DNA of 64,000 nucleotides from Planctomycetaceae bacterium (GTDB lineage Bacteria > Planctomycetota > Planctomycetia > Planctomycetales > Planctomycetaceae): assembly GCA_024742875.1 (NCBI GenBank), contig JANSXP010000001.1, positions 248,001-312,000 on the forward strand, given 5' to 3'. Every line of letters begins with the position of its first letter. Position 1 is the first letter of the stretch. The translations under genes were made by a program, and so were the position numbers. Shown piece by piece: positions 1,866-10,127 of the stretch. The notes beneath the pieces are model-generated. The model ran no database searches. It saw only the letters and a program-made list of their open reading frames with translations, and was not told the origin of the DNA.

Positions 1866-2186
1866 GTGACCGAATCCAATGCCAGCCTGATCGAAAAGAT
1901 GGTCCGCCGGGTGCCCCGCGGACGAGTGGCCACCTATGGCCAGATCGCCGCCCTGATTGGCGCCCCACGAAACTCCCGTCAGGTGGGCAGTGTCCTGCGG
2001 AGTCTGCCTGACGATTCCCGCGTGCCATGGCACCGCATCGTCAATGCGTGCGGCAAAGTGAGCGACCGGGGTGAGTCCGTTTGTGAAGGGCTGCAGCGAC
2101 ACCTGCTGGAAGAAGAAGGTGTGGAGTTTGACGAACACAGTCGCGTGGATCTGAAAGCCTACCAGTGGAAACCGCGACGTCGCTGA
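1866..2186 (+). CDS. alkyltransferase-like protein (ATL, MGMT-related)
   Basis: 106 residues, GTG start. It has the DNA-binding helix-turn-helix of O6-methylguanine-DNA methyltransferase (V-P-x-G-x-V-x-T-Y-G-Q-I-A near residues 16-28, with the arginine-finger region RQVGSVLR at 38-45), but the active-site PCHR is PWHR at 54-57. Trp in place of Cys is the hallmark of ATL proteins: they bind O6-alkylguanine without removing the alkyl group and hand the lesion to nucleotide excision repair. Length fits stand-alone ATLs. The uracil-DNA glycosylase gene follows after 22 bases, so the two may be co-transcribed as a base-damage pair. Confidence 0.9.
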   Translation: MTESNASLIEKMVRRVPRGRVATYGQIAALIGAPRNSRQVGSVLRSLPDDSRVPWHRIVNACGKVSDRGESVCEGLQRHLLEEEGVEFDEHSRVDLKAYQWKPRRR

Positions 2187-2208: not shown

Positions 2209-2922
2209 ATGAACGCCGCCGATCTGCCCCCAGACTGGCGCAATGCGCTGGCGGAAGAAACATCGCAGCCCTGGTTTGTGCAACTGTGCGAATTTGTGCA
2301 GCGTGAACGCCAGACGGGGCCCGTGTTTCCGCCGGCCGAAGACGTGTTTCAGGCGCTGGCACTCACGCCGCTGGCAAATGTCAGGGTCCTGATCCTGGGC
2401 CAGGATCCCTATCACGACGACGGGCAGGCCCACGGACTGAGTTTTTCTGTTCGGCCGGGCGTCAAAGTGCCACCATCGCTGCGCAACATTTACAAAGAGC
2501 TGCAGACAGATCTTGAGATTGCGCCGGCACCACACGGACATTTGCAAAAATGGGCTCAGCAGGGTGTGCTGCTGCTCAACACCGTACTGACCGTCCGCGC
2601 GCATCAGGCCCATTCGCACCGCAAACAGGGCTGGGAGACGCTGACCGATCGTATCATTCAGATCGTCAGTGACAGGCCGGCGGTGGCATTCGTGCTTTGG
2701 GGAAAGCCGGCAGAAGCCAAAGAAAAACTGATCGATTCGCGGCACCTGATCGTTAAGAGCCCTCATCCGTCCCCTCTGTCGGCACGGCGGGGATTTTTCG
2801 GCAGCCGACCGTTTTCTCGTGTCAATGAGTTCCTGGCCCGCAGTGGTCTGCCGCAGATTGACTGGGACGTGGGCGCTGCCGGGAACTCAGACGCGCCCGT
2901 GGAAGCAGGTCGTTTGTTTTGA
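2209..2922 (+). CDS. ung: uracil-DNA glycosylase (family 1)
   Basis: 237 residues. It removes uracil from DNA to start base-excision repair in the cytoplasm. Residues 64-70 are the water-activating motif GQDPYHD, with Asp66 catalytic; residues 186-191 are HPSPLS, the minor-groove/leucine loop motif with the catalytic His. LLNTVLTV (122-129) is the uracil-binding strand. Length is near the family norm (about 225), with a short extra C-terminal tail rich in Ala/Asp. It follows the ATL gene closely. Confidence 0.95.
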   Translation: MNAADLPPDWRNALAEETSQPWFVQLCEFVQRERQTGPVFPPAEDVFQALALTPLANVRVLILGQDPYHDDGQAHGLSFSVRPGVKVPPSLRNIYKELQTDLEIAPAPHGHLQKWAQQGVLLLNTVLTVRAHQAHSHRKQGWETLTDRIIQIVSDRPAVAFVLWGKPAEAKEKLIDSRHLIVKSPHPSPLSARRGFFGSRPFSRVNEFLARSGLPQIDWDVGAAGNSDAPVEAGRLF

Positions 2923-2943
2923 GCAGGCACGCAGCGGGTGACG

Positions 2944-2993
2944 CTTTTGTTGCAAACGACGCGTTGTTGAACACGACGCGTTGTTGAACACAA
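2944..2993. repeat. short tandem duplication downstream of ung
   Basis: A 17-base unit ending in GCGTTGTTGAAC is repeated twice head to tail, with a half-copy at each side (about 2944-2993). A second, 12-base duplication (TTCGTCATCGCA twice) lies at about 3035-3058. Both sit in the leader of the thioredoxin-like gene. They look like replication-slippage duplications; no function is evident. Confidence 0.6.
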
Positions 2994-3017
2994 CGGGCCG
3001 AAAACGATGGACGTGGC

Positions 3018-3062
3018 ATGAGTAAGAAGCCATTCGTCATCGCATTCGTCATCGCATATTGA
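3018..3062 (+). CDS. possible 14-residue leader peptide
   Basis: ATG to TGA gives MSKKPFVIAFVIAY, two Lys then a short hydrophobic repeat (FVIA FVIA). It ends 19 bases before the ATG of the thioredoxin-like selenoprotein candidate. Its central part is the 12-base duplication. It could be a translated leader or chance; there is no family match. Confidence 0.2.
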   Translation: MSKKPFVIAFVIAY

Positions 3063-3081
3063 GAATCACAGAAAGTCAAAG

Positions 3082-3480
3082 ATGGAAGTGCTGCAGAAGA
3101 TGCTGCCCGCCGTGGTACTGTTTGGTGGGGCGATCGTGGTGTGGTGGGTGCTGAGCATTCGTGGCCGAAAGTTCGCATCCACGGCAGAGTTTGAAGGCGA
3201 ACTTCAGGACGGTCGCATCAAGGTGCTCGAATTCTTCAGTAATGGATGACTGCCGTGTCTTGCCTCCGGCCCCATCGTGAATGGGATTGAATCAGACGTA
3301 AAGAGTGTGGCCGACGTGATTCGCATCGATTTGGCGAGTCGCATGGGCCGTGAGATTGGTGGGCGCTACAGCGTGACGGCTGTGCCCACCACGGTTGTCG
3401 TGGACGCTGCAGGCCAGGTCATCTACCAGCATGCCGGCATTCCGGATCGCAGTGCGGTGGTGCAGGTCGTGATGGGCTGA
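3082..3480 (+). CDS. membrane-anchored thioredoxin-like protein, candidate selenoprotein (UxxC)
   Basis: 132 residues if the in-frame TGA at 3247-3249 is read as selenocysteine. Residues 9-26 form one hydrophobic helix, probably a signal anchor placing the rest outside the membrane. Then a thioredoxin fold: strand KVLEFFSNG (47-55), active site U56-L-P-C59, helix to about 70, VIRIDLA strand (79-85), cis-proline motif V-P102-T-T, strand VVVDAAGQV and a final YQHAG. In relatives residue 56 is the nucleophilic Cys of CxxC; here its codon is TGA and every other thioredoxin landmark is intact, with no further stop or frameshift. A stem-loop at 3271-3285 lies where a bacterial SECIS should be. The alternative is a recent nonsense mutation. 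Ordinary gene callers would keep only 3277-3480. No selA/B/C/D gene is in this window. Confidence 0.7.
3271..3285 (+). promoter_or_regulatory. candidate bacterial SECIS hairpin
   Basis: CCCAT (3271-3275) pairs perfectly with ATGGG (3281-3285) around the 5-base loop CGTGA. The loop starts 26 bases after the TGA and has G as its second base; the published bacterial SECIS pattern asks for a loop about 16-37 bases downstream with a G in the first two positions. Beyond one C-A mismatch the stem can continue with G-U, G-U and C-G pairs (3267-3269 with 3287-3289). Confidence 0.5.
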
Positions 3481-3799
3481 CGAAAAAAATGGCGAACAGC
3501 GCGAACTTCTTTTTGGAACACGCGTCTTAGCCATTGACCGTCGGACGGGTGTCGGGCGGCTCAGGTCTTTACCTCTGGAACGGAACCATGTCTTCGCTCG
3601 CACTTTTGTCCCTCGCATCCGAAGCCCGACTCAGTGAGTCTCGCCTGCTGGCGAGTTCTGAGCGGTATCCATTGCGCACATGACATCAGGCAGAAGCACT
3701 CACTTCAAAGCCCGGTGTTGCTGCACCGGGCTTTTTTTGTGGCCAGTGACTGGTCATCGCAGACGGACGCCAGTCTCAGGCGCCACCGCTTAGCCATAT
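3481..3799. other. gap between selenoprotein candidate and tRNA array
   Basis: No gene is supported here. The stretch holds one strong terminator (3707-3738). Reading frames are short and lack ribosome binding sites. A promoter for the tRNA array probably lies after the terminator, but I cannot pick it out. Confidence 0.5.
3707..3738 (+). terminator. rho-independent terminator
   Basis: AAGCCCGGTG pairs with CACCGGGCTT around TTGCTG, followed by seven T residues. It ends transcription from the ung / thioredoxin-like side before the tRNA array. Confidence 0.9.
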
Positions 3800-3868
3800 C
3801 GCCGACGGTCAAGCGACCAGGAGAGCCTCATAAGCTCTCACAGTCAGGAGCGTTACCTGAGTCGGCCA
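3800..3868 (+). tRNA. tRNA-like cloverleaf, CAU anticodon, degenerate loops
   Basis: The 69 bases fold as a full cloverleaf: acceptor CGCCGAC/GTCGGCC (6 of 7 pairs), D-arm GGTC/GACC with a 4-base loop, anticodon arm AGAGC/GCTCT with loop CTCATAA (anticodon CAT), 5-base variable loop, T-arm TCAGG/CCTGA with loop AGCGTTA, then A. The stems are intact but the D-loop lacks GG and the T-loop lacks TTC, and there is no 8-9 linker, so it would not be a normal elongator tRNA. It ends one base before tRNA-Glu. It could be a decayed tRNA, an unusual one, or a chance fold. Confidence 0.35.
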
Positions 3869-3869
3869 C

Positions 3870-3944
3870 GGCACCGTAGTTTCTGTTGGCAGAAATCCCG
3901 GCCTTTCAAGTCGGTGTTCGCCGGTTCGATTCCGGTCGGTGTCA
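3870..3944 (+). tRNA. tRNA-Glu (UUC)
   Basis: Acceptor GGCACCG/CGGTGTC (one G-T pair), discriminator A, D-arm TTTC/GAAA with GG in the loop, anticodon arm CCGGC/GTCGG around CTTTCAA (anticodon TTC), T-arm GCCGG/CCGGT around TTCGATT. CCA is not encoded. First clear member of the array. Confidence 0.85.
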
Positions 3945-3989
3945 TTTCAAAACCGGATGGCGCAGTGACGTGCCACCCTGTTTCCTCCT

Positions 3990-4060
3990 GCCTGGTGAGT
4001 GTGATGGAAGCACGCGACGCTTCGAACGTCGTAGACGGGGTTCGATTCCCTGACTGGGTA
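3990..4060 (+). tRNA. tRNA-Arg (UCG)
   Basis: 71 bases. Acceptor GCCTGGT/ACTGGGT (three G-T pairs), D-arm GTGT/GCAC with 7-base loop GATGGAA, anticodon arm CGACG/CGTCG around CTTCGAA (anticodon TCG), T-arm CGGGG/CCCTG around TTCGATT, discriminator A. A20 in the D-loop fits arginine identity. The small D-loop and weak acceptor stem are atypical. CCA is not encoded. Confidence 0.7.
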
Positions 4061-4116
4061 CTGCCGCTTCGCGCTCGGGTGTTGCAGTGCGGTTGTGGCT
4101 CAATTCTGATTGTCCC

Positions 4117-4200
4117 GGCGCTGCTGCAGAGTGGGATCTGAGCGTGGCTGTAACCCACGTGCTCTTCGTGAGCCAGGCGGTTCGATTCCGTACAACGCCA
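4117..4200 (+). tRNA. tRNA-Tyr (GUA), class II
   Basis: 84 bases, usual for bacterial tRNA-Tyr. Anticodon arm CGTGG/CCACG around CTGTAAC (anticodon GTA); long variable arm with GCTC/GAGC stem; T-loop TTCGATT; acceptor GGCGCTG/CAACGCC with one C-A mismatch; discriminator A. The T-stem also has one mismatch (G-A) and the D-arm is weak. The 5' boundary is less sure: GCGGTTGTGGCTCAA at about 4089-4103 looks like the start of another tRNA, so this gene may have a rearranged 5' half. Confidence 0.65.
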
Positions 4201-4222
4201 TTTTTGAAGGGCCGTTCTTCCT

Positions 4223-4296
4223 GGCGTGATGGCCCAACTGGCAGAGGCATCCGGCTTAAGACTGGAGAGTTGTGGGTTCGAATCCCACTCACGCTA
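4223..4296 (+). tRNA. tRNA with Leu anticodon (UAA), short variable loop
   Basis: 74 bases. Acceptor GGCGTGA/TCACGCT with a G1-U72 wobble, D-arm GCC/GGC with 11-base loop containing GG, anticodon arm TCCGG/CTGGA around CTTAAGA (anticodon TAA), 5-base variable loop, T-arm GTGGG/CCCAC around TTCGAAT, discriminator A. The anticodon reads UUA/UUG, but bacterial tRNA-Leu normally carries a long variable arm; this one is class I. Nearly the same body as the gene at 4338. Confidence 0.75.
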
Positions 4297-4297
4297 T

Positions 4298-4328
4298 CGA
4301 TCATCACACCGTGCGGGCGTGGTGATCG
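4298..4328 (+). other. spacer hairpin between the two Leu-anticodon tRNAs
   Basis: CGATCATCAC (4298-4307) pairs with GTGGTGATCG (4319-4328) with one G-T pair. It fills most of the spacer. It may guide processing of the joint transcript or be a weak terminator; there is no T run. Confidence 0.4.
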
Positions 4329-4337
4329 CAGACACAT

Positions 4338-4411
4338 GGCATCGTAGCCCAACTGGCAGAGGCGCCCGGCTTAGGACCGGGAAGTTGGGAGTTCGAATCT
4401 CCCCGATGCTA
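4338..4411 (+). tRNA. tRNA with Leu anticodon (UAG), short variable loop
   Basis: 74 bases. Acceptor GGCATCG/CGATGCT with the same G1-U72 wobble, identical D-arm core (GCCCAACTGGCAGAGGC), anticodon arm CCCGG/CCGGG around CTTAGGA (anticodon TAG), 5-base variable loop, T-arm GGGAG/CTCCC around TTCGAAT, discriminator A. Clearly a duplicate of the UAA gene with a changed anticodon arm. The pair covers UUR and CUN leucine codons without the class II arm expected of bacterial tRNA-Leu. Confidence 0.75.
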
Positions 4412-4449
4412 CTGAAAACGAAACCGCCAGTGTGGTTTTGAATATCCTG

Positions 4450-4537
4450 GGGGGATAGCCGGATACTGGGTCGCCGGACTGGTCTGCTAAACCAGGTGCC
4501 ATGTTTTGGCATGAGGGTTCGATTCCCTTGTCCCCCG
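4450..4537 (+). tRNA. tRNA-Ser (GCU), class II
   Basis: 88 bases. Acceptor GGGGGAT/GTCCCCC, discriminator G as in other tRNA-Ser, anticodon arm CTGGT/ACCAG around CTGCTAA (anticodon GCT), long variable arm with GCCA/TGGC stem, T-loop TTCGATT. CCA is not encoded. The most regular member of the array and its last. Confidence 0.9.
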
Positions 4538-4593
4538 CTGTCGCGACAATCGCTGCCGTTCGGCTGCGGTTACCATCGGCACAGCCTGCACCG

Positions 4594-5784
4594 TTATCGT
4601 TCGACTTTTTCCATCGGCGGTGCGGGCGAGTCGTCGTAGATGCCAATCCACTCGGCATTCAGATCCGCATCGTGAAACAGAATCCACGATCGCCGGGGCA
4701 CATTGCCCTCCCGCATGGCCCGCTGGATGGCCATCACGCCACGGTCCACATCCGTCAGTGCCAGTTCCAGATAGCTGTACCGCAGCCCCGTGCCCCCGCC
4801 AATCAAAGCGCCTGTGTCCTGCGCTTCGAGTGCGATGCGGGCCGCTTCTTCCATGTCTTCACGATCGTGGAAACCCATGTCGCTCAGATCGCCTGCGCCG
4901 TCAATCTTGACGTAGCAGAACGTTTCCTCGCTGCGACTGTATCGTTCGGAAAAGAAGGGCGCCGGGGAAAACGTGGCGGCAATCAGATCAGGATTGCACG
5001 TGATACACGTCATCAGGTCGTAGCGTTCCGGATAGTCGCGGGCTTCTTCGGGCTCCAGTTTGAGGACGGCCCACTGGCCATCGTCCGCCACCGCGGAATA
5101 GGGTTCAGCCGGCAACTGGGCCCTCATGCTTTCCACCAGCGCTCGGAACGTGGGTTCCAGGCGATCCAGCTCAAGAAAACGCTGGCCCTGTTCCACCGGG
5201 GTGATGTCATCGACGAGATTGATCGTGCCCACCCAGCGGTCCAGGTATTTTTCTCCCAGGAGTGTTTCGGTCGCTACGAAGGCCGCATTGAAGGCCTGAT
5301 CATCGTCCTCGGGGAGTCGCTTCCAGCGATAGGAGAGATCTATTCTGTTGTTGTCTCCGGAGGCAACGGCCACCTTGACCCCCGTGACATCCAGATCGCA
5401 GCGGGCGTCTACCGTCTGCAGGGCCGCCTGCACGTCTTCCCGCAGGCGGTAGGAATAGAATTCCCAGCCGGGAATGTCGGGTGCGCGATCAATGATCGTT
5501 TCTGTCAGCGGACGCAGTTCACTTTGGATTTCGGGTGTGATGACCAGGCGGTGACCGTGTACTTTGACCGCCGGGCCGTACTCCCACATCAACTCCGGGT
5601 GAATGGACTGCAGTTCGCGGTGCATCCAGTCAGCCAGATCCCAGTTTTCCGCCTGCCGAAACAGAGCGTCCAGCCGATCCGTGTTCTTCAAAAACTCTTT
5701 CCACCAGTTGTCAATCTGACGAATGACTTTGTCGTGGCCGCGGGCCTCCGCAGGGTCATTTCGATTGTAGTAAAGCCAACGCAT
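4594..5784 (-). CDS. conserved hypothetical protein
   Basis: 396 residues, soluble, acidic, no signal peptide or membrane segment. It starts MRWLYYNRND and has a Trp-rich N-terminal helical region (residues 20-70), then mixed alpha/beta sequence, and ends in a region that mentions no known motif. A C-x-x-C near the middle (MTCITC) is the only metal- or redox-like feature. I do not recognise the family. It faces the tRNA array (tail to tail with it). The codon pattern is like that of its neighbours. Confidence 0.65.
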   Translation of the reverse strand: MRWLYYNRNDPAEARGHDKVIRQIDNWWKEFLKNTDRLDALFRQAENWDLADWMHRELQSIHPELMWEYGPAVKVHGHRLVITPEIQSELRPLTETIIDRAPDIPGWEFYSYRLREDVQAALQTVDARCDLDVTGVKVAVASGDNNRIDLSYRWKRLPEDDDQAFNAAFVATETLLGEKYLDRWVGTINLVDDITPVEQGQRFLELDRLEPTFRALVESMRAQLPAEPYSAVADDGQWAVLKLEPEEARDYPERYDLMTCITCNPDLIAATFSPAPFFSERYSRSEETFCYVKIDGAGDLSDMGFHDREDMEEAARIALEAQDTGALIGGGTGLRYSYLELALTDVDRGVMAIQRAMREGNVPRRSWILFHDADLNAEWIGIYDDSPAPPMEKVER

Positions 5785-6119
5785 GCCGTTTCCGTATTCA
5801 AGTCCGTCTCACTGCCGCCGGCCCATTCGTCATTGGTGCTCAGTCACTGCAGAAAGCGATCTCGCCCCAAAAGTATTCGCTTATCGTATAGGAACTTAGC
5901 AACTTGGGGCGGTTGCGTCACTTGAATAGTTCTCCTACTGCACGGCATTCGCAGAGCGTAACAGTATGTAACTGGAATTGTGGCGTTGCCGCTTGACACA
6001 GGTGCGTCGCGAACCTCCGCCAGTATCCGAATTTCCCCGAGCTGTGAGAACCAGCGCGCAGAGCGGCCATGTCGCCGCCTGCCTATAGGCGTTCGGCCTG
6101 ACCGTGACGGCGTTCGCTT
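5785..6119. other. intergenic, no recognised feature
   Basis: Holds the leader of the 4594-5784 gene and the 3' side of the symporter gene. A small hairpin (CGCCT/AGGCG) lies near 6071-6087 but has no T run. I see no RNA gene. Confidence 0.4.
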
Positions 6120-8045
6120 CTAGCCCAGACCTGACATCGTCCAGTACATGACGGCGATGGCCACCAGAATCAGCACGCCGGCGGGCACGGCAAATTTCCA
6201 CGGTGTGATGTCGACGTCTTCGCTGTAGGGCTGTTCCCAGGCAGATTCCCGCGGGCGAATCACGGTAATCACCAGCATCACCCCCACGATCAGCACGAAG
6301 TTCATACCGGCAATGTGCAACCAGTGAAACTCATAGCCGCCGATATGGTTTTTCGTGTAGAGACTAAAATAGCCGTAGAACACCACACCCACCAGCACGG
6401 CCGCCCAGGCGGCGATCGACGGTGTGCGACGGCTGAACATTCCCACCACAACCAGCGACAGGATGGGAATGTTGAAAATGGCGGCCAGTTGCTTCATCAG
6501 GTCAAACAAGCCGGTGCCAGCGGTGGCAATCATGGGGGCCACGCAAATGGAGCCCAGCGCCAGAATGACGCCGATGATTTTTCCGACCCGCACCATTTGG
6601 GCTTCTGTGGCTTCATGACGAAACACGGACTTGTAGATGTCCATGCTGAACAGCGTGGCCGCACTGTTCAGTCCGGAGTTGAAGGAACTCAGAATGGCTC
6701 CAAAAATCACGGCCGCGAAAAATCCGAGCAGCCATTTGGGCACCACGCGTGTTGCCAGACGACCATAGCTCTTGTCCTGACTGGACAGCGGCAGGAGTCT
6801 TTCCGGATCCCCTTCCGACAGCACCACGGCAGATCCGGCCTCGTCCCGGCTGATGACCGTGTTTTCCGCGATGACCTGAGAGATCTGATAGACCTTCTGA
6901 TCGGCCCCCTCGCCCACGGTGATCTCCTCTCCCACCTTGCCGCTCAGGTTCTTGAAGGAATCATTCAGTGCAGCAACGTTGCCATCTTCGGCCTGTTCGA
7001 ACACGAACGCCTTTTTCGTGTCTGTGTCGATCGTCTCGACCGCCATGATGGCCGGTTCTGCGGGGAGCTGATGCACGACATACTCCTGATCTCCCTCCTG
7101 ATGGATGGCGAACAGGTGAAAGGCGATGATTCCCGGCAGCACAACGTAGATCGGCGCGAGCAGTTTCATGACGGCGGCAAACAGTACGCCCTTTTGCCCA
7201 TCAGACAGTGACTTCGCGCCAAACGTCCTTTGCACAATCGCCTGATTGGTACACCAGTAATAGGTGGTGATGAACAGCATGCCCGTGAACAAAGTGGAGA
7301 ATGGCACGTTGGCCGATTCTTCCATGGCCACCGGATTCAGACGCTCGGGGCGATGCGTGGTGATATGTCGAAAGCCCTCCGCAAATCCACCATCGCCATA
7401 CAGGTTGCCGAGTTCCACCAGTCCGAAAAACGGAATAATGGCGCCGCCGATCAGCAGGCCAACGCCATTCATGGTGTCGGAAACAGCCACGGCCTTCAGA
7501 CCACCAAAAATGGCATAGATGCTGCCGATGACTCCCAGGGCAATTACGGTGACCAGCAGTGCGTTCTGTTCGGCCGATTCGCCCGAGAAGTACTGGTCTA
7601 CGGCGAACACGTCTTTCATGAAGACGGCGCCGGAGTACAGCACAAACGGCAGCAGGTTGGTCAGCAGCGACAGCAGCAGTAAGACGGAAATCAGCGTTCC
7701 TACCCGGCGGTCGTAACGTCGCGCAAGGAATTCGGAAACGGTCGCCACTCCACCTTTCAGATAGCGGGGCAGAAAGACGAGCGCCATCAGTACGATCGCG
7801 ATGGCCGACCAGACTTCCCACGCCATCAACTGCATCCCGTGTTCAAAGCCACCACCATTCATGCCGACCAACTGCTCGGTCGACAGATTGGTAAGCAACA
7901 GTGATCCTGCGATCACCACCCAGCCCAGGCTTCGTCCCGCCAGAAAATAGCCACTGGACGATTCGTGGTCGTCGTTGCGGGTTTTCTGCCAGGAGACGTA
8001 GGCGACAAGAGCGGTGAAAGCGATGAAGGACAGTGCGGTGGCCAT
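6120..8045 (-). CDS. sodium:solute symporter (SSS family)
   Basis: 641 residues with about 13-15 membrane helices. The family pattern is clear: an N-terminal SSSGYFLAGRSLGW segment (residues 30-43), GGLKAVAVSDTMNGV in the fifth helix region, and SSFNSGLNSAATLFSMDIYK, the SSS signature. It imports a small solute (sugar, inositol, sialic acid or similar) with Na+; the substrate cannot be told from sequence. Between two membrane helices, at about residues 320-425, there is an extra polar stretch of roughly 100 residues rich in Asp/Glu/Val, unusual for the family and probably exported. It stands alone, so no pathway is suggested. Confidence 0.9.
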   Translation of the reverse strand: MATALSFIAFTALVAYVSWQKTRNDDHESSSGYFLAGRSLGWVVIAGSLLLTNLSTEQLVGMNGGGFEHGMQLMAWEVWSAIAIVLMALVFLPRYLKGGVATVSEFLARRYDRRVGTLISVLLLLSLLTNLLPFVLYSGAVFMKDVFAVDQYFSGESAEQNALLVTVIALGVIGSIYAIFGGLKAVAVSDTMNGVGLLIGGAIIPFFGLVELGNLYGDGGFAEGFRHITTHRPERLNPVAMEESANVPFSTLFTGMLFITTYYWCTNQAIVQRTFGAKSLSDGQKGVLFAAVMKLLAPIYVVLPGIIAFHLFAIHQEGDQEYVVHQLPAEPAIMAVETIDTDTKKAFVFEQAEDGNVAALNDSFKNLSGKVGEEITVGEGADQKVYQISQVIAENTVISRDEAGSAVVLSEGDPERLLPLSSQDKSYGRLATRVVPKWLLGFFAAVIFGAILSSFNSGLNSAATLFSMDIYKSVFRHEATEAQMVRVGKIIGVILALGSICVAPMIATAGTGLFDLMKQLAAIFNIPILSLVVVGMFSRRTPSIAAWAAVLVGVVFYGYFSLYTKNHIGGYEFHWLHIAGMNFVLIVGVMLVITVIRPRESAWEQPYSEDVDITPWKFAVPAGVLILVAIAVMYWTMSGLG

Positions 8046-8410
8046 AGAGTTGTCGCGTTAGAGAAGTTTCCGGTGATAAAGTATCTCAGGATCGTTTCCG
8101 GCAGTGCTGTGGGTTGCGACAGGATTGTCACCCACAGACACAAGAATATCAAGCAGGAGTGCATTCTGGGGCCCAATGCCAAAATTGCCACCACTGACCG
8201 GTGATCGCAGACAACTTTTTTGCTGTCGTCTGCTCGCACTGGCCCCGATGAGCCACCCAGATTACTGCCGATTTCACTAACGGAGTCGATTTTTCAGGCG
8301 TAGAATACCGAGGCTCGCGCTCCACAACGCCTTCTGAGCGGATTGAGTTCTGACGCCATAAGTTGTTTATTGTTAATGGCTTAAGTCATATTGAGCGGCG
8401 ATTGGATCAC
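8046..8410. other. divergent intergenic region
   Basis: Lies between the symporter (minus) and the plus-strand gene at 8411, so it should hold promoters for both. I see no operator or RNA gene. The plus frame is open back to 8363, but that start has no ribosome binding site. Confidence 0.4.
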
Positions 8411-9154
8411 ATGTCGACACCTACAGCAGACCCCCCCCAGACTGAAGACGTGGCCACGAAACCAGAATCTGGCCATTCGGGCTGGGCAAGCGATTCGTAT
8501 TCTGACGATTTTGATTACACGCCCGTATCTCCGTGGGGGCCTGTGGCTCTCGCGCTGGGGCTGGCGGGATTGACCGCTTTCCTGAGCGTGTTTGGGATCG
8601 GTCTGTCCGTGGTGGGCATCCTCATTGGCATTGCCGCTTTGCTGCGAATTCGCGCCGAGCAGGGGACCGTGAAGGGGATGGGATTTGCTGTGGCGGGGTT
8701 GGTGTTGTCAGTCTGCTGCTGTGGGCTGGGAACTGCCAAGATGGTGCACCTGTACAACACGGAAGTGCCAGAGGGATTCCAGCGTGTGAATTTCCCAATG
8801 GAGATTTCTGACAAAGAGTTCGTTTACTATGGCGGCGCTCGCCGTCTGCACCCAGACGTGGCTCCATTGATTGGCACTCAGGTGTATCTGAAGGGATTCA
8901 TGTGGGAGACAAAGAGTCTCACCGGACTGACCGAGTTTGTCTTTCTCAAAGACAACGGCGAGTGCTGTTTCGGTGGGTCCCCTCAGCCGTACGACATGAT
9001 GGTCGTCTACCTGGAGCCGGACAATCCGACGGACGCCTACACGGGCATGGTCGCGGTGGCCGGAACGCTCAAAGCCAACGTCAACGCTGGCGAAGGAGAG
9101 CCCGTCTATACCGTCGAGGCTGAGATCGTGAAGGAAGCGCCGACGCCGTTTTAG
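8411..9154 (+). CDS. membrane protein with DUF4190-like helices and a DUF3299-like C-terminal domain
   Basis: 247 residues from the ATG at 8411. Residues about 45-110 hold two or three membrane helices around a G-x-x-x-G-rich core, like the DUF4190 membrane module. The C-terminal 130 residues, outside the membrane, contain FMWETKSLTGLTEFVFLKDNGECCFGG, which matches the next gene's C-terminal domain (FMYPT...TRFTLARDNGICCF). This resembles the small beta-barrel DUF3299-like family with its paired Cys. Function unknown; the CC pair may be redox or metal binding. 82 bases before the next gene on the same strand. Confidence 0.65.
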   Translation: MSTPTADPPQTEDVATKPESGHSGWASDSYSDDFDYTPVSPWGPVALALGLAGLTAFLSVFGIGLSVVGILIGIAALLRIRAEQGTVKGMGFAVAGLVLSVCCCGLGTAKMVHLYNTEVPEGFQRVNFPMEISDKEFVYYGGARRLHPDVAPLIGTQVYLKGFMWETKSLTGLTEFVFLKDNGECCFGGSPQPYDMMVVYLEPDNPTDAYTGMVAVAGTLKANVNAGEGEPVYTVEAEIVKEAPTPF

Positions 9155-9236
9155 CGTTTGCGCTGCGAGGGCCGGATGATCCCTGATCTCGTGAGCTTCC
9201 CGGAGACTGTTCAAAACGAAGGTAAGGACACGAGTG

Positions 9237-10127
9237 ATGACAAAACAACGCCCCCTTTCTGCCAGCTTGACCGGACTGTGCCTGACCCTGATGGCCTCTA
9301 TGCTCACCGGTTGTGCCGAGAATGGTCCCTCACTCGAATACAGTGCCCTGGTTGCCGAGCTGCCCGATTTCCAGGCCAACGCCAATCCCGTCTATCACTA
9401 TCCTGAGGATCAGGATCCGCCTCCGGCCGACGATCTGCGAGATCCTGTCCGCCCTGTGGTCGATCTCCCCACGGAGCCACCTGCGAAGGCCACGGATGTG
9501 GCCGATTCTCTGCCTCTGAATGCTCCGGAAGCACAAAGCGACGAAGGCACGGCAGTCGCACGGCCTGCGACGGAAAGCCCATCGACCGGAAGCAGCGCTG
9601 TGGCGGACGCCGCTTTGAATCCTCCCAGCCAACCATCGGCCGATGGAGTCGCGCAGCCGGTGATTGGTGAACCTGACGCGACCGCCGAACCGCGCGAGAT
9701 CCGTGTGCTGATTGCCGAGAAGCGTTTTCGTGATGAGAACGGCGCCTTGCGGGTCAGCTACGACGACGTGGATCTGTTGAAGGTGCTGAACATGGAGCCG
9801 GTCCCGGCGGACGCGGCCGACTATTTTCCCGCCTGGCTCAAAGACCTGGACGGCCAGCGCATTCGCATTCGTGGCTTCATGTACCCGACTTTTGAAGCGA
9901 CAGGTCTCACACGATTCACGCTGGCTCGGGATAACGGGATCTGCTGTTTCGTCCGTCAGCCACTGATTTACGACGTGATTGGCGTCGACCTGGCGGACGG
10001 GGTGACGACCGACTACATCGACAACAAGCCGTTTGATGTCGAAGGGGTTTTCCGAATCCAGCCGGAAGCAGATGACACGGAACTTTATCAACTGTACCGT
10101 ATCACGGACGCCAAAGTCGTTCAGTAA
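9237..10127 (+). CDS. lipoprotein with DUF3299-like domain
   Basis: 296 residues. The N-terminus is a lipoprotein signal (residues 1-25, lipobox MLTGC), so it is anchored to a membrane by its lipid. Residues 30-150 are a low-complexity Pro/Ala/Asp/Ser linker. The C-terminal 140 residues carry the domain shared with the preceding gene, with DNGICCF as the best-conserved piece. ATG at 9237 was chosen; a GTG just before it (9234) is equally placed, with AAGGA upstream. The two genes look like a divergently evolved pair acting on the outer face of the membrane. Function unknown. Confidence 0.65.
   Translation: MTKQRPLSASLTGLCLTLMASMLTGCAENGPSLEYSALVAELPDFQANANPVYHYPEDQDPPPADDLRDPVRPVVDLPTEPPAKATDVADSLPLNAPEAQSDEGTAVARPATESPSTGSSAVADAALNPPSQPSADGVAQPVIGEPDATAEPREIRVLIAEKRFRDENGALRVSYDDVDLLKVLNMEPVPADAADYFPAWLKDLDGQRIRIRGFMYPTFEATGLTRFTLARDNGICCFVRQPLIYDVIGVDLADGVTTDYIDNKPFDVEGVFRIQPEADDTELYQLYRITDAKVVQ

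Follow-up and report, generated by a model that had tools for sequence, protein, structure and literature searches.

A thioredoxin-like gene of a Planctomycetaceae bacterium with a TGA at its active site very probably encodes a membrane-anchored selenoprotein

The locus and its reading frame

The window, that is, the whole stretch of 64,000 nucleotides analysed, contains a candidate selenoprotein gene (3082..3480, + strand) that, judged from its frame, domain match, orthologue, structural model and fold search, would encode a thioredoxin-like protein of 132 amino acids with one selenocysteine (Sec, U). The frame starting with the ATG at 3082 has a single in-frame TGA at 3247-3249 (codon 56, +), is otherwise open and ends with the TGA at 3478-3480; the product is 132 amino acids long if codon 56 is read as U. 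The mechanical ORF list cuts this gene into two ORFs. The earlier note had described one TGA at the first active-site position of an otherwise intact thioredoxin-like frame, and this was confirmed: the active-site stretch is FFSNG-U-L-P-C, with a Pro at residue 64, and the TGA occupies position 1 of this CxxC-type motif, where the orthologue and the relatives argue for its reading as Sec. The TGT at 3256..3258 (+), seen in the sequence and in the orthologue, encodes Cys59, which by analogy we presume to be the resolving Cys of the UxxC motif. FFSNG before the TGA as well as PIV and Pro102 after it are present as had been claimed, and Pro102 (codon at 3385..3387, +; context A-V-P-T-T) is taken by us, by analogy to thioredoxin, to be the cis-Pro of the fold. 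Downstream of the TGA the frame continues for 76 codons plus the stop, in agreement with the 77 codons given before. Of a set of 36 non-overlapping mechanical ORFs in the window with a length of at least 250 amino acids, 15 terminate with TGA, which excludes a general reassignment of this codon.

Directly upstream of the candidate gene a protein of the uracil-DNA glycosylase superfamily (PF03167; 2209..2922, +) is encoded, preceded by a gene for an MGMT/alkyltransferase-like protein with a PF01035 domain (1866..2186, +). A hairpin search found an intrinsic-terminator-like hairpin with a T run (3707..3734, +) between the candidate gene and a tRNA cluster, but two such hairpins were found in the region versus 1.2 expected by chance. 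The tRNA cluster (Glu, Arg, Tyr, Leu, Leu, Ser) lies just downstream of the gene, at 3870-4538; ARAGORN found no tRNA in 1.5 kb around the glycosylase gene of seven congeners.

Domain, fold and membrane anchor

With U entered as C, residues 33-127 of the product matched the Thioredoxin domain PF00085 with 26.0 bits (cut-off 23.5). A profile search of the own genome with PF00085 gave 20 rows, none of them with a stop, and the window gene was absent from them. Within NCBIfam the nearest models were those of thioredoxin, but the score for the TrxA equivalog TIGR01068 was 37.9 bits and the curated cut-off is 96.8 bits, so the protein falls outside canonical TrxA; for the ResA, TlpA and DsbE models it was far below the cut-off. 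AlphaFold2, run on two sequences, gave five models with mean pLDDT values from 76.5 to 49.9, and in the best one (76.5) residues 61-64 were below 50. Strands and helices of the model follow the thioredoxin order, and in a fold search against solved structures the best 50 of 1442 matches were thioredoxins or thioredoxin complexes, with E-values of about 1e-7 for the best ones, which points to a thioredoxin fold of the predicted structure.

The N-terminal anchor proposed before agrees with a hydrophobic segment at residues 8-26 (mean Kyte-Doolittle value 2.25), a transmembrane helix predicted from hydropathy and the model (3103..3159, +) and followed by the basic residues R27, R29 and K30; AlphaFold2 placed a helix at residues 2-25 with low confidence (block means of 53-69 for residues 1-30). 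The orthologue has R, K and K after the helix, and before the helix there is one Lys in each protein. According to the positive-inside rule, the basic flank of a helix marks the cytosolic side. Since the basic residues are mainly C-terminal of the helix in both orthologues, a cytosolic thioredoxin domain is favoured, probably kept by the anchor at the inner side of the membrane. The active site had been placed outside the membrane by the earlier note, and it is this part of its description that the flanking charges speak against.

Orthologue and distribution

A congener, G003, whose genome is a metagenome-assembled genome (MAG), carries an orthologue that is 47% identical. The TGAs of both genes align at the same codon, the orthologue has no other in-frame stop, and its motif is U-M-P-C instead of U-L-P-C. 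Homologues with stops at other places, named before as an argument against a selenoprotein, were not what the orthologue presented. Conservation of the UGA in at least two different sequences is used as a criterion for selenoproteins (PMC1088965, accessible text), and the UGA is conserved between the window and G003 sequences at 47% identity. The loci of the two carriers are collinear, with the MGMT-like gene (in the orthologue's locus a similar gene at the same place, by eye), the uracil-DNA glycosylase gene and the candidate gene in this order; one further upstream gene is alike in both, also judged by eye.

The gene was found in these two genomes only. Among 58 genomes (own and relatives) a strong match was found, besides the own genome, only in G003, and a search of 397 genomes of the class, again including the own, gave about 250 bits for these two and 46.7 bits for the next-best match. 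In a sample of 392 genomes of the phylum only the own genome scored at about 250 bits, G003 not being among the genomes listed. The three samples overlap, and the own genome is counted in each. Among the matches listed in these searches, an in-frame TGA occurred in the two carriers only; the weak matches listed for the phylum sample included at least one with a TAA (G365) and at least one with a TAG (G424). A scan of contigs with the alignment of the two sequences, using two peptide patterns only, yielded two loci, the G003 orthologue and a distant match with 29% identity, and no relative was found on the viral contigs scanned. The six other congeners have the glycosylase (Ung) gene, and tblastn over 1.5 kb on each side of it revealed no trace of the selenoprotein gene. 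The Ung gene of G005 (L111) has an in-frame TAG inside the match, perhaps an assembly error.

Cysteine at the TGA position and selection on both sides

In thioredoxin relatives, a Cys was found at the position of the TGA in all 60 loci read, which are 58 distinct genes because G016 and G044 each occur twice; the count covers the relatives with a fetched locus, search rows without a locus standing outside it. The proposed comparison of homologues at codon 56 therefore gave TGA in G003 and Cys in the relatives, and the view that the TGA is not placed there by chance holds: Cys stands at this position in 60/60 relative loci and TGA in the sole clear orthologue.

The in-frame UGA has homology on both sides. 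NG86 estimates of dN and dS for the window gene versus G003 were 0.51 and 2.17 before codon 56, and 0.41 and 1.51 after it, and the excess of synonymous over non-synonymous change was significant on each side (p = 3e-4 before and 2e-5 after the TGA, with rounded counts). By this comparison of sequences purifying selection acts on the frame before as well as after the TGA, which for the post-TGA part implies translation.

Selenocysteine machinery

The genome of the window (8.18 Mb, 168 contigs, 98.1% complete, 2.05% contamination) was searched for selA, selB, selD and a tRNA-Sec, as had been suggested, and all four were found. The genes selA (485.5 bits, cut-off 267.9) and selD (256.3 bits, cut-off 125) adjoin each other on contig 22, selB (334.8 bits, cut-off 242.25) is on contig 157, which has only 8.8 kb, and the tRNA-Sec (77.8 bits, cut-off 47) is on contig 46; its anticodon, read from the alignment, is UCA. 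Within the genus selA, selB and selD were each over the cut-off in 8/8 genomes and the tRNA-Sec in 7/8, the best score in G006 being 46.1 against 47. The six congeners without the candidate gene still have the Sec machinery (with the tRNA-Sec of G006 just under the cut-off). Together with the congener TGA at the identical codon, this machinery supports the selenoprotein reading put forward before.

Two observations concern the arrangement of these genes. In the window's genome, selD forms the C-terminal portion of a 725-amino-acid ORF (L138, 2588-4765), whose N-terminal portion on inspection looks like an oxidoreductase. On contig 72 of G003 (2292-9541) tRNA-Sec, selD, selA and selB lie within about 7.3 kb; the same four genes are spread over three contigs in the window's genome.

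Other redoxin genes of the genus with an active-site TGA

The PF00578 matches listed from the eight genomes of the genus include at least 19 with one in-frame TGA and at least one with a TAG. In 19 of the 19 loci fetched (L119-L137) the TGA was found by eye at the active-site position, in the motifs TGGU, UPxC, UGPC, ULPC and UFC. At least four of these 19 genes are in the window's genome and none is among those listed in G003. Judged from their sequences, these 19 peroxiredoxin- or TlpA-like genes probably encode further selenoproteins. Two of the TlpA-like ones (L122 and L130) differ in that the TGA gives U-x-C, not U-x-x-C (WASW-U-F-C).

A candidate SECIS hairpin

In a candidate bacterial SECIS hairpin, CCCAU[CGUGA]AUGGG (3271..3285, +), 26 nt separate the UGA from the start of the loop. 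The bSECIS rule given in the available text of PMC13188914 asks for a loop of 3-9 nt, a stem of 4-16 bp, a G in the first two loop positions, a distance of 16-37 nt from the UGA and an MFE <= -7.5. Under this rule the window hairpin passes with a 5-nt loop (CGUGA), 5 bp, 26 nt and a region MFE of -11.3 kcal/mol, a value that takes in two hairpins. Both orthologues and 17 of the 19 other TGA genes of the genus pass as well, and so do 26-31% of the control sequences (shuffles 77/300 and 88/300, random window positions 123/400, TGA trinucleotides 139/500); the published rule is loose. A stricter rule (loop of 3-6, stem >= 5, loop start N?G[GU]), set post hoc after the loops had been seen, was again passed by both orthologues and 17/19 other genus TGA genes but by far fewer controls (shuffles 28/500 and 15/500, TGA trinucleotides 68/1000), and it separates better than the published one. 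The 19 positive TGA genes are not independent since there are orthologue groups among them. Among the FTGGU-type genes of the genus the loop is repeatedly CGUGC or CGUGA.

The orthologue's hairpin is CCCAUC[GUG]GAUGGG, of which the sixth pair is a C-A mismatch in the window gene; between the two hairpins no compensatory change was seen. Folding z-scores were modest (+0.60 to -1.63), the region being unremarkable against shuffles. Five of the six hairpin codons are identical between the orthologues versus 24 of 54 elsewhere (p = 0.08, not significant), a conservation that is suggestive only.

Interpretation and alternative explanations

Taken together, we read the ORF at 3082-3480 with high confidence as the gene of a thioredoxin-like selenoprotein that is anchored in the membrane by a single pass; this confidence refers to its being a Sec-encoding gene and not to topology or substrate. 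It is very improbable that the TGA is an accident, i.e. a nonsense mutation or a sequencing error in a once Cys-type thioredoxin, and the gene a pseudogene. The assemblies are drafts, and the gene was not found in 6/8 congeners and so could be dispensable; but the same TGA is present in a 47% identical orthologue from a separate assembly, the part after the TGA shows purifying selection, there is no further stop or frameshift and the genome has a complete Sec machinery.

Decoding of the TGA as another amino acid, or low-level read-through without Sec, for which nothing beyond an open frame after the stop would be required, has hardly any probability left in view of the TGA ends of 15/36 long window ORFs, the Cys in all 60 loci read, the tRNA-Sec, and the in-frame stops in the listed PF00578 matches of the genus (at least 19 TGA versus at least one TAG, all 19 listed TGAs at the active site by eye). 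Just as slight is the chance that two short products are made, a membrane peptide of 55 amino acids and a protein of 67 amino acids from the GTG at 3277: the mechanical list has both ORFs, but in the second one both the active site and the domain's first strand are missing, the two pieces jointly match one thioredoxin domain and in the orthologue pair selection is seen on both sides of the TGA.

For the anchored Sec-thioredoxin we propose that SelB and Sec-tRNA-Sec would bind the hairpin 26 nt downstream of the UGA and the ribosome would insert Sec at 3247-3249. As in the exchange by a dithiol thioredoxin, the selenol of Sec56 might then attack a substrate disulfide, and Cys59 might resolve the resulting mixed selenenylsulfide, with the anchor probably keeping the thioredoxin domain at the cytosolic membrane face. 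Much more tentatively, and we regard this as rather unlikely, the gene may represent a subfamily of anchored, cytosol-facing Sec-thioredoxins that is restricted to part of one planctomycete genus, feeds electrons to a membrane-bound partner at the inner face and is without a close Cys counterpart in the class, the closest other class match being the one of 46.7 bits.

The analysis shows that two entries of a plain ORF list are one real gene and adds an anchored thioredoxin-like protein to the use of Sec by planctomycetes. Since at least 19 further redoxin genes, which fall into several orthologous groups, have a TGA that by eye is at the active site, the redox proteome of the genus may be under-annotated.

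Comparison with known systems

Membrane-anchored thioredoxin-like proteins of the TlpA, ResA and HCF164 type are Cys proteins with a CxxC motif that face away from the cytosol. The candidate protein resembles them in its single N-terminal anchor and thioredoxin-like domain; in contrast to these non-cytosolic CxxC proteins it has UxxC.

Among selenoproteins, thioredoxin was listed for bacteria in a survey of 2006 (PMC1794560, accessible part), and Sec-thioredoxin (PF00085, UxxC) is counted as experimentally verified in the available text of PMC13188914. The candidate shares with the latter the thioredoxin domain, the UxxC motif and Sec at the first active-site position, but differs from it by the N-terminal membrane anchor and by the 37.9 bits, versus 96.8, for the TrxA equivalog; its motif is U-L-P-C, that of the orthologue U-M-P-C. 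SaoT (NF040730) and the HUIPC-motif proteins (NF047660), named in the same text as thioredoxin-like selenoproteins, are also UxxC proteins; no NCBIfam hit with E <= 1 belonged to either model, the inclusion of both in the library being unconfirmed. For the planctomycetes P1 and P2, Sec machinery and selenoproteins have been published (PMC4807772), which, as far as the accessible text goes, gives the same phylum, a full Sec machinery and redox selenoproteins; unlike the window gene, those named there are fdhA and fmdB, and a similar gene may stand in the supplementary list. The available main text of PMC12013277 and PMC13188914 does not mention planctomycetes, and a literature search, with subscription journals mostly outside its coverage, found nothing on the candidate gene among the papers listed. 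Misannotated UGA genes (PMC1088965) and Sec-thioredoxins (PMC13188914) are already known from the accessible parts of these sources. Because UxxC Sec-thioredoxins are known, this is not a new kind of protein; the candidate gene is a new, anchored and narrowly distributed example of the known Sec-thioredoxin kind.
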